Shown: positions 2,940 to 39,562 of the stretch, in pieces
How the letters are laid out: every line of letters begins with the position of its first letter
How positions within the stretch are numbered: the stretch's first letter is position 1
Origin: Planctomycetia bacterium
Lineage (GTDB): Bacteria > Planctomycetota > Phycisphaerae > Phycisphaerales > SM1A02
Length of the DNA stretch: 64,000 nucleotides
Direction: 5' to 3'
Assembly: GCA_005787685.1 (NCBI GenBank)
Contig: SYAC01000041.1
Location: 1-64,000 of the forward strand
Notes under the pieces: generated by a model
The model's database searches: none
Told to the model about the DNA's origin: nothing
Seen by the model: only the letters and a program-made list of their open reading frames with translations
Translations under genes and position numbers: made by a program

Positions 2940-3227
2940 TTGCTTTCTTTGGTTGATAATCAACTTGGGGACAGGCCTGTGATGACAAATTACAACAACT
3001 TCATCTCAACACGAGAAATTTAATTAATGCCATGATGTGGCTCGGAGGCAAGATAATAATCAAATTTTAATTGAATTTATTGCTTTTAAACTCACAAATG
3101 GGCGCAAGCGGTACGCAGGGGGTTGCTTAGCCTATTCTACGAGTTGGACAATAATTTAAGTTTTCATAAAAAAAGAATGTTGCGAATATTGTTCTTAGCA
3201 AAAAATGACTAAATTTGAGCCAAAATA

Positions 3228-32139: not shown

Positions 32140-33687
32140 CTACTCAAATGTGCCGCGATCAAGCAGTTGAAAGTCATACAGCGCCGCAAGTTGCTTGCGA
32201 TTCAGCGAGCCGAGCTTGCCCAGCGTGGCGATGAGTGATTTGCTTTTCTTCACACCCAGTTTGCCCATCATGGTGAACTTGGTGGCAAGAATGTCATTCA
32301 AATTAGCCGTGGTGTTGCGCGCGTGGCCGCCAGGAAACATGACTAAGCCGCTGTCATGCGTGCCCGTATCGGTGGTGATTTGAACCTGGGTTGGAATGCC
32401 CTCTGGATAGCGGCGATCAAATTCAGGACCGCCATGCTGAAATTGAATCTTGGCCATCAGCGCGCGCGTGTTTGGATTCAATATGGCATCCGATCCATAA
32501 TCCTCCGGCTCCAACATCAGATTTTTCCAAGCGTCGTCGCTGCTTGCGCCCAGTCCCGCGCGTCCATGCGACGCCACGCACTCAATGGCCTTGCGCAGCA
32601 ATGTGCTGACAATGTAAAGCATGGAATGATCCGCGCTTTGGCGCGTTTTTGGATCACGCTTGGCGGGATCGCCAATAATTCCAAACGCTGGCTCATATGC
32701 CGTGATCACAATACTTTGTATTGAATCGGGCTTCTGCGCCAACTCTGGATGGCGTTGCACCAAATCAATCACGCCTTGCAGCGCGCCCGCGCTTTGGTGC
32801 TCATACAAGCCAAGTTTGAAGTGCATGCCCATGACCGCAAAGTCATCACCCGACATGGACAAATGCAAATCAAATGGACTGTCGCCTTGCGTGCGCTCGA
32901 ATTGGCGGAACATGCTTTCGGGATTGCGAAAAATGTCACGCGGACCCATGAAGCCGCGCATAGATCGCTGCATGCAAAGCACCGCGAATTCAGTACTGAT
33001 AGCAGCGCTTGCACCCTTTGAATCGCTGAGCTGTTTGCCAGCGCGAATGGCGCGCCATGGAATGGCGTGCGCTACGAACATGCCAATAGCGCTCTCGATT
33101 TCCTGAGCCGTTGCCCCCAGAATGGCGCCGTACACCGCCGCGCTGGCAATGGCGCCGTGCACCACATGGTCAATCTTGTAGGTCTTGAGTGAAAAAACTT
33201 CAGCAAGTCGTCCGCGAATTTCATCAATGCACACCATGGCGCGCAACGCCATGTCGCCACCCTCTTGGGCAAGTTGCGCCGCCGCAATCGCCACCGGATA
33301 AAAATCATTGTGGCCAAATTCGCCGGCCGTGTGTTGAAGCTCTGGTCTATAGCCGAAATTTGTTCCGTTGGAATCCCATTCGCGTACCGCGGCGCAATTG
33401 GCCACGATGGCTTTTTCTGGCGCCACCAATTTGTCGCCGCCAAAGACGGGCACGCCATTTTTATCGCGGTAACTCAAAGCCTCTTTGCGTAGCAGCACTG
33501 GCGCGTTGGTGCCAAGAGCCAGTGCGCTGACGCCGCATAACACCGCGTCAGTGTGGAACAAGGTTGTCCGATCAAGCACCGCTTGCGACGGCATGCCCTC
33601 GCGCAGAAAATCAATCGCGTATTGCCCAATGCCTAAAGCCTGGTTTGTGTTGCGGGCCAAAACGCGCACAGATGTGGAATCACTCAT
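32140..33687 (-). CDS. MmgE/PrpD-family protein, possible 2-methylcitrate dehydratase
   Basis: The 515-residue protein matches the PrpD/IDS-epimerase fold: FHTDAVLCGVSALALG, VREWDSNGTNF near the active site, the helix segment HVVHGAIASAAVYGA, KGASAAISTEFAV and DDFAVMGMHFKLG. PrpD dehydrates 2-methylcitrate in propionate breakdown; other members act on other hydroxy acids. Its start overlaps the stop of the B12/G-protein fusion (ATGA), which supports a link to propionyl-CoA metabolism. No methylcitrate synthase is nearby, so the exact substrate is open. Confidence 0.82.
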   Translation of the reverse strand: MSDSTSVRVLARNTNQALGIGQYAIDFLREGMPSQAVLDRTTLFHTDAVLCGVSALALGTNAPVLLRKEALSYRDKNGVPVFGGDKLVAPEKAIVANCAAVREWDSNGTNFGYRPELQHTAGEFGHNDFYPVAIAAAQLAQEGGDMALRAMVCIDEIRGRLAEVFSLKTYKIDHVVHGAIASAAVYGAILGATAQEIESAIGMFVAHAIPWRAIRAGKQLSDSKGASAAISTEFAVLCMQRSMRGFMGPRDIFRNPESMFRQFERTQGDSPFDLHLSMSGDDFAVMGMHFKLGLYEHQSAGALQGVIDLVQRHPELAQKPDSIQSIVITAYEPAFGIIGDPAKRDPKTRQSADHSMLYIVSTLLRKAIECVASHGRAGLGASSDDAWKNLMLEPEDYGSDAILNPNTRALMAKIQFQHGGPEFDRRYPEGIPTQVQITTDTGTHDSGLVMFPGGHARNTTANLNDILATKFTMMGKLGVKKSKSLIATLGKLGSLNRKQLAALYDFQLLDRGTFE

Positions 33688-34811
33688 AAAGGGAATATAG
33701 CGTTGAGCAATTCAACCACGCCTTTGCCTTGTGTGGCAATGGTTTCAAGAATTGGCCTGCCCGCCGCCACATCAAGAAGCTCGCGCACCAATTTGGCTTC
33801 GCCCGCGTGGTCGGCTTTGTTGGCCACAAACAAATCCGCAATCTCCAGCAATCCAGCCTTGTCCATTTGCACGGAGTCGCCCATGCCCGGGACAACCACA
33901 ACAATGCAGCGGTCCACATGGCGGCGAATAGCCACATCATTCTGTCCTGCTCCCACGGTTTCAACAATCACATCGTTGTATCCAGCCGCGCCAAGTAAAC
34001 CCAGAATGTCGTTCAGCGTGGCGTAGTCCTCGCCAACAATGGCAAGCGATCGGTAGAAAATGCCTTCATCCACGGCGTTAAAGTCCACGCGCAAGCGGTC
34101 ACCTAGTAGCGCGCCACTGGTAATGGGACTCATTGGATCAAAGGCGATCACCGCCAACTTGCTGCCGCGCAACACGCTTTCGCGCGCCATGGCGGCAACC
34201 AGCGTGCTTTTGCCGGCGCCAGGCGCGCCCGTGATGCCAATCACGCGCTTTGGTTTTTTGCGGGGTGTGAGCGCGTCAAGCCGCTTGGCGTGCGCCAAAG
34301 AAATCATGCGTCCAAGTTGCGCGGTTGGATGCGGCGTTGGAGTGAAAGGCAATGGCGCGTAGTCGCGCACCGCCGCGCGCACGCTTTCAACAATGGGATC
34401 AAGCCCGGCGCCCGTGTGAAAAATCTGGTTCACGCCCGCGGTCAAAAGAACTTTCACATCTTCTTGTGGAATAATTCCGCCCACATTCACAATCATGTCG
34501 GGACGGCCAACTTTGCGGCACTCATCCAGCAGGCGCGGCACCAACACCAAGTGGCTGTTGCTCATCATGGAGCATGCGATGCAATCCGCGTCTTCATCGC
34601 GCGCGCCAATGGCCAAGCTGCGCGGTGTCTGCCACAACCCGCTGTAAATAACATGCACACCGCTGTCGCGCAGCAGTCGCGCAATAAGTTTGACCCCGCG
34701 GTCATGACCATCCAGACCCATTTTCCCCAGCAAAACCCGCGGGCGATGCGGCAAGCCGCCGCACCTATCTTTTTTTTCAATCGCGGTTGTTGGTTCGGTG
34801 GTGGCGCGCAT
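33684..34811 (-). CDS. B12-binding domain fused to a MeaB/ArgK-type GTPase (IcmF-like N-terminal half)
   Basis: The 375-residue protein has two domains. Residues about 22-145 form a cobalamin-binding Rossmann domain with the base-off motif GLDGHDRG and the downstream MIVNVGGIIPQEDV loop. Residues about 185-375 form a G domain with GITGAPGAGKST, FDPMSPITSG, VIVETVGAGQND and VANKAD. This order matches the N-terminal half of the fused mutase IcmF, but no mutase substrate domain follows and the MeaB C-terminal arm is missing. Likely role: chaperone loading or protecting adenosylcobalamin on a mutase encoded elsewhere. It overlaps the PrpD-family gene by four bases. Confidence 0.85.
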   Translation of the reverse strand: MRATTEPTTAIEKKDRCGGLPHRPRVLLGKMGLDGHDRGVKLIARLLRDSGVHVIYSGLWQTPRSLAIGARDEDADCIACSMMSNSHLVLVPRLLDECRKVGRPDMIVNVGGIIPQEDVKVLLTAGVNQIFHTGAGLDPIVESVRAAVRDYAPLPFTPTPHPTAQLGRMISLAHAKRLDALTPRKKPKRVIGITGAPGAGKSTLVAAMARESVLRGSKLAVIAFDPMSPITSGALLGDRLRVDFNAVDEGIFYRSLAIVGEDYATLNDILGLLGAAGYNDVIVETVGAGQNDVAIRRHVDRCIVVVVPGMGDSVQMDKAGLLEIADLFVANKADHAGEAKLVRELLDVAAGRPILETIATQGKGVVELLNAIFPL

Positions 34812-34842: not shown

Positions 34843-35535
34843 TTAAGAGGCGGATCCCTCGGCGGTTCCTTGCTCCGTCGTATTTTCGCCAACGCGCTTA
34901 GCCTGATCCGTCCACTTGTCCGGCATCATGCGATGTGCGATGGAGCCAATTATCAAGTACATGTTCTTAAAATCATGGTCATCCAAAAGAACTCGCGTGC
35001 CATCCGTGGTTACCACGGTCGCGGTCCAAGTGCTGCGGCGGTCGCCTTCCTTGGCGCACCATCGGCTCATATCTATTTCCACTATATCCTTTTGCTTAAA
35101 TGTGCCAACTGGCGTGACCAAAGTTCCGTCGTCTTGTAATTCATAAATTAGTTTTTTAATTTTAATAATTGGCCAGATAAAGAACGGCGTTCCAAGTAAG
35201 CCGCAGCCAATGATGTATAGCCACAATTGTAAAATGCGGTCATATTGCGAGGGTTTGGAGGGAGCGCCAGAATTTCGGGCGGTGATTTGTGCGACGGTTT
35301 TTTGTAAGTCTTCAAATGTGGACTTTTCGGAATCACTGAGTGGCGTGGTGGTCGATTGCGTTTCCAATTTCTTGATTCCTTCCTTGGCTTGTTCAAAGGC
35401 CAAGCAATCGACTTCCAAATTTGGAATTTTAATCGAGTAGTCATACCAACCCCAAAGGGCAAATACGATGCACAGCGTCGCAAAGATCGCGTTTCGCCAA
35501 AACACGAATGGTGCAATAGTGGTTCGAATTGGCAT
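34843..35535 (-). CDS. Unknown two-helix membrane protein
   Basis: A 230-residue protein not recognised as a family. A hydrophobic helix lies near residues 13-31 (IFATLCIVFALWGWY), then a soluble segment of about 70 residues with helical, coiled-coil-like character, a second hydrophobic stretch (LWLYIIGCGLLGTPFFIWPI), and a C-terminal domain of about 90 residues with beta character (DGTLVTPVGTFKQKDI) that resembles a PH-like membrane-protein domain. The start ATG follows a perfect TATAAT by eight bases, suggesting a leaderless mRNA. TTG 35544 is an alternative start. Confidence 0.7.
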   Translation of the reverse strand: MPIRTTIAPFVFWRNAIFATLCIVFALWGWYDYSIKIPNLEVDCLAFEQAKEGIKKLETQSTTTPLSDSEKSTFEDLQKTVAQITARNSGAPSKPSQYDRILQLWLYIIGCGLLGTPFFIWPIIKIKKLIYELQDDGTLVTPVGTFKQKDIVEIDMSRWCAKEGDRRSTWTATVVTTDGTRVLLDDHDFKNMYLIIGSIAHRMMPDKWTDQAKRVGENTTEQGTAEGSAS

Positions 35536-35543
35536 GAAATTCA

Positions 35544-35549
35544 ATTATA
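35544..35549 (-). promoter_or_regulatory. TATAAT -10 element of the two-helix membrane protein gene
   Basis: A perfect TATAAT hexamer ends eight bases before the ATG at 35535. With a normal start point six or seven bases downstream, the mRNA would have almost no 5' leader. The -35 box is not obvious (GTTCTT at 16 bases is weak). Confidence 0.45.
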
Positions 35550-35595
35550 GCGCATGATTTGATTTAAGAACTTGAACGCCAGCCACTATGGGTGC

Positions 35596-35797
35596 GGCGT
35601 AAGGGCGATGGGGGCAGTCTTTGGAGGCAGGCCACCTTGACGGATTCGGAATCCATTCCAAATCGTACGGCTTCCGGTATCAGCCGCAGCCAAGGGGTCG
35701 GGAGAGCGGTCTCCATGCTCGTCCGACCAGTGCAAGGAGGTCCATCCACATGCCGACTAGTGCCTCTGGGGTCTAACCCCCATCGCGTGCATACGCC
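35596..35797. ncRNA. Candidate structured RNA with long-range closing helix
   Basis: The two ends pair: GGCGTA (35596-35601) with TACGCC (35792-35797), and after a small internal loop a perfect 10-bp helix GCGATGGGGG (35605-35614) with CCCCCATCGC (35777-35786). Further in, GAGGC (35624-35628) pairs with GCCTC (35762-35766), and CCTTG (35635-35639) with CAAGG (35733-35737). The interior adds local hairpins: GGATT/AATCC, and GGTCGG/CCGACC containing GAGC/GCTC. The size and helix-with-bubbles plan recall 6S RNA, but I cannot match it to that or to RNase P, SRP or tmRNA. Strand is undetermined; it lies between nrdJ and a membrane protein gene. Confidence 0.55.
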
Positions 35798-35848
35798 CAA
35801 GTCATTATCGGAGTGATGAACAACTTGGGAGATGTTTGTGAAGATGAA

Positions 35849-38800
35849 TCAACTGCAACCCATGCTGTTGCCGCAGTTCAGACATCGATAGCAAGTTCCA
35901 TTGCGAACAGTGATTGCTCCGCACACGTCACAAGCTGGAGCGTCGCCCATGAGTTGGGCATTTGATTGGTCAAGCACGGACGCTGCTTGGAAGGCGGTGC
36001 CTTCGAACTCTTCTGTGATCTTCACGGGGGCTGCCACTCCAGCCAAAGATTCGCCCGTCAATCGTCCAAGATCCGCAACTGACAATCTGCTGGCAGCAGC
36101 GTCGATCTTCGCCAGGTCTTCGAAGCTGGGGGCGTTGGACATTTGATCGGCCAAACCGCTCAATGTATTGCCAATTCCTTCCATATTCGCAAATCGATCC
36201 GCCGGCTGATTCGTGGCGCCGTCCATTCGTTGTGACCATGCAGTGTCCTCCTTGACAGGTTTGACAAATCCAGCGGTTGGAACATCCAACGTTGAATTTG
36301 AAGCCACGGCAGCTCCGCGCCGCGGCGAATTTTGTTCGCGATATCCATGAATGAATTGCATGCCCATCCAACGGAATATGTAATCCACCAAACTTTTAGC
36401 AAATGGAATTTCCGAATTCGTTGTCATGCCCATGGGTTCAAATCGCTGATGTGCGAACTTGGTCACCAGGCTTTCAACAGGCACGCCATATTGCAGCGCC
36501 ACGCTAATTGCGGTGCCAAGCGAGTCCATGAGCCCGCCAATGGTCGAACCTTCTTTGGCCATGGTGATAAACAGTTCGCCTGGTCGGCCGTCCTCGTACA
36601 AGCCGACAATCAAGTAGCCCTCATGTCCAGCCACATTGAACTTGTGCGTAATGCTGCCACGCGTTTCCGGCAAGCGGCGACGAAGCGGCCGCTCAATGAT
36701 GCGTTCAACAACGCGTTCAACAACGCGTTCCACAAATTCACCGCTGGTGTTCGTTGGCACAATCACCGATTCCGTGGCGGCGACCTCGATCACGCGGTCA
36801 ACGGTTTGCGTGCCGGATGAAACCGTCTCATGAATGACGGTGGTGGTGATGGTTGTTTCAGAGGAAAGATCCAAACCCTCCATGTCCTCGTCCTCTTGCT
36901 CCACATCCGTCTTGGTATTGAGCGGTTGGCTCAACTTGCTGCCATCGCGGTACAAGGCGTTGGCTTTCAGGCCAAGTTCCCAACTCAACCGGTAGGACGC
37001 GCCGACATCAGCAATAGTGGCTTTTGTGGGCAAATTGATGGTTTTTGAAATGGCGCCAGAGATGAAAGGTTGCGCCGCGGCCATCATGTGAATGTGGCCG
37101 TCGGGACGAATGAAGCGCGTGCCGGTTATACCGCATGTGTTGGCGCAATCAAACACAGGCAAGTGCTCTGGATTGAGCAGTGGCGTGCCTTCTACGGTTT
37201 GTGTTCCACAAATCAAACGGTTCAGGGTTTCAATTTGCTTTTTCTTTAAACCAAGTTTGCGCAAGCCGTTGAACTTGGGATCGCTCTTGGCGGCGGTGGC
37301 GTCAATACCAATATTTTCCAGGACATGCACGGGAATGCTCCAGGCGGAGAAGGCAAATCCCAATTCGAACATCATGGGCAATTGATTTTCCAACGCCACC
37401 AAGTCGTCGCCGGTGTAGCCCTTGGCGCTGAGATAGTCACGCAGCGTGGTTGTATCGTTTGTAATTTCGCCACTCACGCTTGGTAGCGCGGTGTCAATGC
37501 TGAGCGTGCCAATGACATGCGTCATAATGCGGTCGCTGATCTCATCGCTGTACCCCAACGCCTTGATGGCGGGGCGCAAACTTTGATTGGCAATCTTGAA
37601 GTAGCCGCCACCGGCGAGCTTTTTAAACTTGGTCAACGCAAAATCTGGCTCGACGCCAGTGGTATCGCAATCCATGAGCAAGCCAATGGTTCCAGTTGGC
37701 GCAATCACGGTGACTTGCGCGTTGCGGAAACCAAATTTGGTTCCAAACAACAACGCATCGTCCCAACACGCCAATGAGCGCGCCAGCATGTCGCTCGCGT
37801 TTGCAATCGAAATCGTGCCCGCCTTGAACAAGCTGTGATCAATGGAAACAGGGCGAATATCAAGCGATTCCCACTCGCTTGCGGTGCGATCCACACCGTA
37901 TGCGGCGCGTCTATGGTTGCGAATGACACGCAACATGCTCTCGCGATTTTCGCCGTAGCCATCAAACGCACCGTGTTCCGCTGCAAGCAGGGCGCTGGCG
38001 GCGTAACTGCGGCCAGTAAGAATGGCGGACAACGCCGCACACACCGCGCGACCTTGACCGCTGTCGTAGGCAATGCCGGCTTGCATAAGCATGGCGCCCA
38101 AGTTGGCGTAGCCCAAACCAAGCGTGCGATATTTCCAGCTGAGTTGGGCGATTTCCTTGGAAGGAAACGCCGCCATCATGACGCTAATTTCCAGCACCGC
38201 GGTCCACAAACTAATTGCGTGCTCATAGCCCTCAAGATCAAAGGTGCGGGATTGTGCGTTATAAAATTTCAGCAAGTTAATGCTGGCCAAGTTGCACGCG
38301 GTGTTGTCCAGGAACATGTATTCGCTGCATGGATTGCTGGCGTTAATGCGGCCACCAGCGGGGCAGGTGTGCCACGCGTTGATGGTGCTGTCGTATTGCA
38401 AGCCAGGATCGGCGCATTGCCACGCCGCGAAATTAATTTGCTGCCACAGGTCGCGCGCGGGAAGCGTCTTTGAAATTTTTCCATCGGTGCGCTGAATCAA
38501 GTTCCATTGCGCGTCGTTGTCGACGGCGTTCATGAACTCATCCGATAGGCGGATTGAGTTGTTGGAATTTTGCCCGCTGACTGTTTGATAGCACTCGCCG
38601 TTGAAATCGAAATCAAGTTTCAATTTCAAACGATTCGCAATTTCCGCCTGCTCAGGCGTGAACTTTTTAGCGCCTTCAACCAAGGCAGCCACCTTCAGTT
38701 CCTCGCGCACCTTCCAATTCACAAAGGCCTCAATATCAGGGTGATTCACGTCCAAACACACCATTTTGGCGGCGCGGCGGGTTGTTCCGCCACTCTTGAT

Positions 38801-39553
38801 TGCGCCTGCGGCGCGATCACCAATTTTCAGGAAACTCATGAGGCCGGAACTTTTTCCGCCACCTGAAAGAGGCTCATTATCGCCGCGCAGATGGCTGAAA
38901 TTGGTTCCAGTTCCCGATCCATATTTGAACAGGCGCGCCTCGCGCGTCCACAAATCCATGATGCCACCATCGCCCACAAGGTCGTCGCGCACGCTTTGAA
39001 TAAAGCACGCATGTGGTTGCGGATGGCTGTACGCATCGGTGGCTAGCGACACTTCACCGCTGGTGTGATCGGCGATCCAGTGTCCTTGCGCCGGACCGTT
39101 GATTCCATAAGCCCAGTGCAAACCTGTGTTGAACCACTGCGGACTATTTGGCGCAGCGACTTGGTTGAGCAACATCCAAGAAATTTCGTTGTAGAACGAT
39201 TGCGCATCTTGGGACGAGGCGAAGTAGCCAAACTTCTCGCCCCAATGGCGCCAACAGCCAGCCAGGCGGTGCACGACTTGTTTCACGGAACGCTCAGGAC
39301 CAAGAATAGTTTTTCCAGCCGCGTCAACTTTGTTCTTGCCACTTGCGTCCACTTGGGGCACGCCCGCCTTACGGAAATATTTACTCACCACTATGTCCGT
39401 TGCAAGTTGGCTCCAAGATGCCGGGATTTCTGCGTCATTCATTTCAAACACCGTTGATCCGTCGCTATTACTTATGCGACTGGTTCGCGTACTCCACTCA
39501 ACAGTGCTGAAGACGTCTTGTCCTGGACGAGTGAATCGTGGGGTGATCTTCAT
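35849..39553 (-). CDS. nrdJ: Adenosylcobalamin-dependent ribonucleoside-diphosphate reductase (class II)
   Basis: Makes deoxyribonucleotides using adenosylcobalamin, so it needs no oxygen and no small subunit. The 1234-residue protein contains NSPQWFNTGLHWAYG, FKYGSGTGTNFS, NPCSEYMFLDNTACNLASINLL carrying active-site residues, and APTGTIGLLMDCDTTGVEPDFAL. Residues past about 950 hold a charged linker with VVERVVERIIER and then a TSCPD-type domain, ending with a CxxC...CxxC cluster (CDVCGAITVRNGTCYRC). ATG 39553 follows AAGGA; TTG 39562 is also in frame. A cobalamin riboswitch was looked for upstream and not found. Confidence 0.96.
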   Translation of the reverse strand: MKITPRFTRPGQDVFSTVEWSTRTSRISNSDGSTVFEMNDAEIPASWSQLATDIVVSKYFRKAGVPQVDASGKNKVDAAGKTILGPERSVKQVVHRLAGCWRHWGEKFGYFASSQDAQSFYNEISWMLLNQVAAPNSPQWFNTGLHWAYGINGPAQGHWIADHTSGEVSLATDAYSHPQPHACFIQSVRDDLVGDGGIMDLWTREARLFKYGSGTGTNFSHLRGDNEPLSGGGKSSGLMSFLKIGDRAAGAIKSGGTTRRAAKMVCLDVNHPDIEAFVNWKVREELKVAALVEGAKKFTPEQAEIANRLKLKLDFDFNGECYQTVSGQNSNNSIRLSDEFMNAVDNDAQWNLIQRTDGKISKTLPARDLWQQINFAAWQCADPGLQYDSTINAWHTCPAGGRINASNPCSEYMFLDNTACNLASINLLKFYNAQSRTFDLEGYEHAISLWTAVLEISVMMAAFPSKEIAQLSWKYRTLGLGYANLGAMLMQAGIAYDSGQGRAVCAALSAILTGRSYAASALLAAEHGAFDGYGENRESMLRVIRNHRRAAYGVDRTASEWESLDIRPVSIDHSLFKAGTISIANASDMLARSLACWDDALLFGTKFGFRNAQVTVIAPTGTIGLLMDCDTTGVEPDFALTKFKKLAGGGYFKIANQSLRPAIKALGYSDEISDRIMTHVIGTLSIDTALPSVSGEITNDTTTLRDYLSAKGYTGDDLVALENQLPMMFELGFAFSAWSIPVHVLENIGIDATAAKSDPKFNGLRKLGLKKKQIETLNRLICGTQTVEGTPLLNPEHLPVFDCANTCGITGTRFIRPDGHIHMMAAAQPFISGAISKTINLPTKATIADVGASYRLSWELGLKANALYRDGSKLSQPLNTKTDVEQEDEDMEGLDLSSETTITTTVIHETVSSGTQTVDRVIEVAATESVIVPTNTSGEFVERVVERVVERIIERPLRRRLPETRGSITHKFNVAGHEGYLIVGLYEDGRPGELFITMAKEGSTIGGLMDSLGTAISVALQYGVPVESLVTKFAHQRFEPMGMTTNSEIPFAKSLVDYIFRWMGMQFIHGYREQNSPRRGAAVASNSTLDVPTAGFVKPVKEDTAWSQRMDGATNQPADRFANMEGIGNTLSGLADQMSNAPSFEDLAKIDAAASRLSVADLGRLTGESLAGVAAPVKITEEFEGTAFQAASVLDQSNAQLMGDAPACDVCGAITVRNGTCYRCLNCGNSMGCS
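36701..36736. repeat. Three 12-bp tandem repeats inside nrdJ
   Basis: GCGTTCAACAAC occurs twice head to tail, followed by the variant GCGTTCCACAAA. They encode the repeated VVER segment in the linker between the reductase core and the C-terminal domain. Confidence 0.85.
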
Positions 39554-39562
39554 GTTGCTCAA

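Follow-up and report, generated by a model that had tools for sequence, protein, structure and literature searches.

The gap behind a ribonucleotide reductase gene in a planctomycete raises the question of whether a strongly folding intergenic stretch is a genuine RNA, and if it is, on which strand it is read and what it may do. In the window (the whole stretch of 64,000 nucleotides that was analysed), an earlier note had described positions 35596-35797 as a possible new or divergent structured RNA, in a gap of about 300 bases downstream of nrdJ. The element is a conserved structured RNA, encoded on the minus strand 3' of nrdJ and belonging to no Rfam family; its structure, strand, spread and linkage to nrdJ are established below by computation. 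The gap measures 304 nt, from the end of nrdJ at 35849 to the next gene, and the RNA lies inside it with its core starting about 60 nt 3' of nrdJ. The features are as follows.

35849..39562, minus: nrdJ, class II (B12-dependent) ribonucleotide reductase (Pfam PF08471 and PF02867; adjacent to the RNA on the same strand)
35796..35829, minus: hairpin P0, between the nrdJ stop and the core, with CTCCGA in its loop (35808-35813; variable stem, recurrent loop motif)
35605..35787, minus: core, consisting of closing stem P1 and four-way junction P2-P5 (match of 170.8 bits to a covariance model of which the window's own sequence is part; pair counts; covariation test)
35779..35786, minus: 5' strand of P1, pairing with 35605-35612 (two-sided changes in each of its 8 pairs; 92.8% of cells paired)
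35605..35612, minus: 3' strand of P1 (pair counts)
35730..35754, minus: hairpin P3, whose loop L3 carries GTGGATGGA (92.4% paired, two-sided changes in only 2 of 5 pairs; motif profile)
35741..35745, minus: ANGGA motif of L3 (ATGGA), proposed CsrA site (ANGGA in 67 of 68 sequences)
35696..35728, minus: hairpin P4, GGTCGG/CCGACC (6 pairs, 5 with two-sided changes, 97.6% of cells paired; top covarying pairs)
35712..35716, minus: ANGGA motif of L4 (ATGGA), proposed CsrA site (ANGGA in 66 of 68 sequences; conserved C and G flank)
35636..35695, minus: P5 with two lineage-specific arms (P5 pairs highest in covariation; loops from the window's minimum free energy fold)
35652..35656, minus: further ATGGA loop on a P5 arm in the window's genus (hairpin loop AATGGATT in the minimum free energy fold)
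34843-35544, minus: next gene, 233 aa

Structure, strand and coding potential

The minimum free energy (MFE) of 35596-35797 is -95.4 kcal/mol on the plus strand and -93.1 kcal/mol on the minus strand, with z-scores of -4.3 and -4.7 respectively, and none of 200 shuffles folded as well; the end-to-end pairing described in the earlier note is thus borne out, since the ends do pair and the energy lies far below that of the shuffles. In the layout, P1 (for the window, GCGATGGG/CCCATCGC) is followed by a continuation that varies and then by the four-way junction P2/P3/P4/P5. The RNA also extends past position 35797, because the conserved hairpin P0 lies between that point and nrdJ; P0, with its CTCCGA loop, is found upstream of P1 in most copies and is missing from some, and its stem differs among relatives. 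A kissing interaction between CTCCG in the P0 loop and CGGAG in L4 was considered and rejected, since the L4 variants AGGGA and AAGGA occur without matching changes in P0.

The evidence for the paired core comes from 87 aligned sequences, in an alignment fitted to the structure: pairing holds in 93.5% of pair cells, and two-sided (compensatory) changes occur in 27 of the 32 pairs. The covariation score is 0.399, compared to 0.183 in shuffles and at most 0.093 in slid versions, a comparison that leans towards the structure because of the same fitting. In a phylogeny-aware covariation test (our own script), all of the top ten pairs fall in P1, P4 and P5, with E-values from 5e-5 to 0.8. When the alignment is made blind to the structure, pairs of P4, P1 and P5 still head the list, and two P4 pairs alone come near significance (E about 0.05-0.07).

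The strand, which the earlier note did not name, was established from the counts of GU and AC pairs obtained by running RNAalifold on both strands. The GU:AC counts are 76:5 on the minus strand versus 13:17 on the plus strand in one distant clade, and 43:6 on minus versus 74:24 on plus in the window's own genus. This asymmetry indicates an RNA read on the minus strand, the same as nrdJ, and together with the terminators described below it leads to the rejection of a plus-strand RNA.

Two open reading frames cover the gap, one on the minus strand (35564-35800) and one on the plus strand (35592-35816). Both are broken in close relatives, by a 1-nt indel in loci L013 and L014 and by a stop in L011 where the window's frame runs on, and the differences in core length among relatives are not multiples of three, so the gap has no convincing protein frame, as had been noted earlier. 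A mobile or repeated element was rejected because the RNA is single-copy in its own genome and occurs once per genome in relatives.

Scanned with Rfam, neither the window nor 20 homologous loci gave a match above a family's threshold, and permissive E-values brought up nothing credible, which agrees with the earlier remark, made before any such search, that no known RNA signature fits. The likeness to 6S RNA (RF00013) that the same note had drawn is not supported. The RNA does share with 6S RNA a length near 200 nt and a long closing stem formed by end-to-end pairing, but it differs in location and in internal architecture, having a four-way junction rather than a single bubble, and the Rfam 6S model finds nothing in the window. 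Weak 6S-like candidates are present in two genomes that carry the nrdJ RNA (G016 and G032), on contigs other than that of the nrdJ RNA. That the RNA is a divergent 6S RNA is, on this evidence, extremely improbable.

A published “nrdJ RNA motif” is said to lie upstream of nrdJ. It was rejected as the identity of the present element, which has no Rfam match, and nothing on the motif was found in the open-access literature; nor did that literature yield a description of the present RNA.

Distribution and linkage to nrdJ

A DNA search found relatives within the genus at 73-96% identity and short conserved cores in other genera, and inspection of nrdJ loci on genome contigs located the core 3' of nrdJ in distant planctomycetes too. 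A first covariance model, R1, gave 45 matches, 43 of them in loci besides the window and its own genome copy, and in 79 of 201 relatives it located a single copy per genome. A second model, R2, found one copy each in 120 of the 181 genomes of the window's family, covering 35 of its 45 genera, as well as a single weak match (E = 0.002) in another family, 81 nt 3' of its nrdJ. The nrdJ gene itself is present in 178 of the 181 genomes. Genera without a clear match mostly have a more divergent RNA, designated type 2, at the same place. Type 2 shares a 3' module made up of a hairpin similar to CAAGGATG, the tract TCTTCCCTCC and a terminator whose loop has CCCACC, and intermediates of the core form (type 1) have the same module. 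With a model built on this module, R3, matches were obtained in five more families.

The linkage of the RNA to nrdJ, which the earlier note did not mention, is strict. Wherever nrdJ is within reach, which is so for 67 loci, the RNA follows it immediately on its 3' side and in the same orientation; a contig end truncates the single locus that has no nrdJ. This order also holds in 20 of 20 additional loci, and the weak match in another family is included in these counts. The 12 R3 matches that were fetched are all directly 3' of nrdJ, and a comparison of coordinates places those in other nrdJ loci likewise, so that all copies with usable flanks, 87 core hits and 12 modules, have this arrangement. 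The distance between nrdJ and the RNA ranges from about 40 to several hundred nt.

The genes downstream of the RNA vary. Many genomes have a membrane-like protein and a B12-binding/MeaB gene, while in others the opposite strand carries a gene that was named NuoA-like by eye. Since the downstream genes vary and can be convergent, a leader of the downstream gene was rejected as the identity of the RNA. In the window, the gene at 33684-34811 on the minus strand joins a B12-binding domain to a MeaB GTPase; it is located downstream of nrdJ and the RNA, as in many relatives, and gives the locus a B12-related neighbourhood. A TATAAT hexamer, seen by eye, is located at 35550-35555 on the minus strand, just upstream of the gene at 34843-35544; it is a possible promoter of that gene's own, and read-through from the RNA into the gene may therefore be absent.

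These neighbours bear on the possibility that the RNA is a riboswitch that senses a metabolite such as adenosylcobalamin or a nucleotide, which we judge very unlikely. Both nrdJ and the B12-binding/MeaB gene found in many genomes would suit such a sensor, as would a compact junction with invariant loops. The RNA, however, is placed 3' of nrdJ and not in its 5' leader, the genes further downstream vary and are in some cases on the opposite strand, and neither the cobalamin model nor any other Rfam riboswitch model matches.

Two other RNAs were observed in the course of this survey. In one genome (G024, C1:3022054-3022857) an RNase P RNA gene on the plus strand lies tail to tail with the nrdJ RNA on the minus strand, about 240 nt away. 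In three genomes (G076, G027 and G070) a second RNA with a CCCACC-loop terminator lies behind a MraZ-like gene (named by eye); in the MraZ-like loci L348, L349 and L352 it is found at about position 3001 in RNA orientation, and in L352 it has the GGTCAAGGATGACC hairpin. This RNA is perhaps a sister of the nrdJ RNA.

ANGGA loops and CsrA

A further property absent from the earlier note is the presence of GGA in the hairpin loops. In 68 dereplicated sequences, L3 has A in 99%, then a variable N (T, C or A), then GGA in 100%, with ANGGA in 67 of 68; L4 has C in 98%, A in 100%, N (C, T, A or G) and GGA in 100%, with ANGGA in 66 of 68. The A(N)GGAX loop is recognised by RsmE, a CsrA homologue, with N and X looped out (PMC4005645), and the A-N-GGA of L3 and L4, with its free N, is the published CsrA/RsmE motif, A(N)GGAX of RsmE/RsmZ (PMC4005645). 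In the window's copy GGA occurs in L4 and in the loops of both P5 arms in the MFE fold, and in L3 by family consensus; the consensus draws L3 as a large loop, and part of its ATGGA is base-paired in the window's MFE fold.

The number of ANGGA hairpin loops is 70 in 48 type-1 RNAs compared to 3.7 in shuffles (19-fold), 27 in 16 type-2 RNAs compared to 1.9 (14-fold), and 16 in a set of 20 RNAs, the majority from other families, which was analysed once the CsrA idea had been formed, compared to 2.4 (about 7-fold). Random 230-nt windows from the same loci have 0.05 such loops per window. Since L3 and L4 are homologous across the type-1 copies, the conservation in type 1 counts as one evolutionary fact and not 70. 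The enrichment is weaker outside the window's family, where some copies are without an ANGGA hairpin loop.

Genes for CsrA are present in 100 of 101 relatives, in most cases two paralogues (two in the window's genome, G000), and in only 3 of 14 control genomes; because it is nearly universal in these genomes, its presence does not discriminate. In the window's genome, one of the CsrA genes lies downstream of a gene identified by eye as FliW-like. Where a lineage has no strong CsrA match and only the second paralogue, GAA replaces the first GGA of L3: the loop reads GTGAATGGA instead of GTGGATGGA in G020, G016, G084, G081 and G080, and separately in G032, with G082 and G066 as exceptions to the pattern. 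As loss of the FliW-linked CsrA and the change of GGA to GAA in L3 go together in 2 of 4 losses, the link is a hint only.

The ANGGA loops, the CsrA genes and a precedent among predicted RNAs suggest, with somewhat better than even probability in our estimate, that this is a Csr/Rsm-type RNA that binds CsrA. The precedent is TwoAYGGAY (RF01731), a predicted CsrA-binding RNA outside the Gammaproteobacteria (PMC4333381), which is likewise a structured RNA with two conserved AYGGA-type loops and a CsrA role deduced from the motif, and which differs in lineage, architecture and genomic position. The established members, CsrB/CsrC and RsmX/RsmY/RsmZ, resemble the nrdJ RNA in having several A(N)GGA hairpin loops, an intergenic location, a CsrA in the genome and an intrinsic terminator, here in most copies, although none was found for the window's own. 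They are built of simple hairpins in a row and belong to Gammaproteobacteria, whereas the nrdJ RNA has a four-way junction under a long closing stem, is planctomycete, has fewer GGA sites and is fixed behind nrdJ. Neither the window nor the 20 homologous loci match the covariance models of CsrB, CsrC, RsmY, RsmZ or TwoAYGGAY at the family threshold.

Terminators, transcription and proposed function

A hairpin with a T-run occurs within 160 nt 3' of the RNA in 51 of 68 loci, compared to 3 of 68 on the reverse strand; none was found behind the window's own copy. With homologues and covariation, these terminators lend strong support to the initial suggestion of a new or divergent structured RNA. 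The gap between nrdJ and the RNA contains a terminator in 8 of 67 loci. Since most loci have no terminator in this gap, the gap of the window has no consensus promoter that we could find, and the 3' end of nrdJ shows no strong synonymous constraint, the RNA is probably made together with the nrdJ transcript and not from a promoter of its own.

The same observations, together with the unbroken same-strand linkage, would also be expected of a purely cis-acting 3' untranslated element that governs the stability, termination or decay of nrdJ mRNA, with or without CsrA and with no role in trans. This is an unlikely account, though one that keeps appreciable weight: a terminator or stability element alone needs neither a conserved four-way junction nor two ANGGA loops with a free N, and the distance from nrdJ to the RNA is not fixed.

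The terminators have a property that CsrA does not account for, nor does it account for the CTCCGA loop of P0. CCCACC lies in the loop of 36 of 46 terminators of the RNA versus 2 of 69 other terminator-like hairpins, and it is kept in other families. Pairing of CCCACC with GGGTGG in the core was rejected, as the match is inconsistent across copies. Pyrimidine tracts such as CCCTTTTCCCTCCCTCC occur directly upstream of other terminators too (L345, L346, L347, L350 and L351), so the tract is not special to the nrdJ RNA. C-rich loops serve as seeds in some known sRNAs, and the RNA could accordingly be pictured as a base-pairing sRNA with CCCACC or the CTCCGA of P0 as its seed and the GGA loops serving for folding. 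We regard this as quite unlikely, because the CCCACC loop has no counterpart in the window's genus and some other clades, and a free N within ANGGA fits recognition by a protein better.

Under the Csr/Rsm-type reading, the minus strand would give rise to a regulatory RNA immediately 3' of nrdJ; P1 and the four-way junction would present at least two A-N-GGA-X hairpin loops, to which the window's copy would add the GGA loops of P5; the loops would bind CsrA, as in CsrB/RsmZ; and the RNA would either titrate CsrA or let CsrA act on nrdJ mRNA. From sequence we infer that the RNA is transcribed, that it derives from the nrdJ transcript, that it binds CsrA and in which direction its effect goes.

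Leaving CsrA aside, in at least six families the RNA has kept its place next to nrdJ while its neighbours on the far side have changed, which makes a strong case that it is functional and connected with dNTP synthesis. Its alignment could seed a new Rfam family. We tentatively propose, at rather less than even probability, that it represents an order-wide, undescribed RNA class at the 3' end of class II nrdJ which couples dNTP synthesis, and hence growth or B12 supply, to CsrA, and that it may be, as far as we have searched, the first planctomycete Csr-type RNA, with the 3' end of a metabolic mRNA as its source. According to a 2014 paper, no CsrA-titrating sRNA had by then been identified outside the Gammaproteobacteria, though CsrA is widespread (PMC4333381). 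If the binding of CsrA is true, planctomycetes would possess an RNA antagonist of CsrA, and it would become testable whether ribonucleotide reductase is directly linked to post-transcriptional control at the global level.
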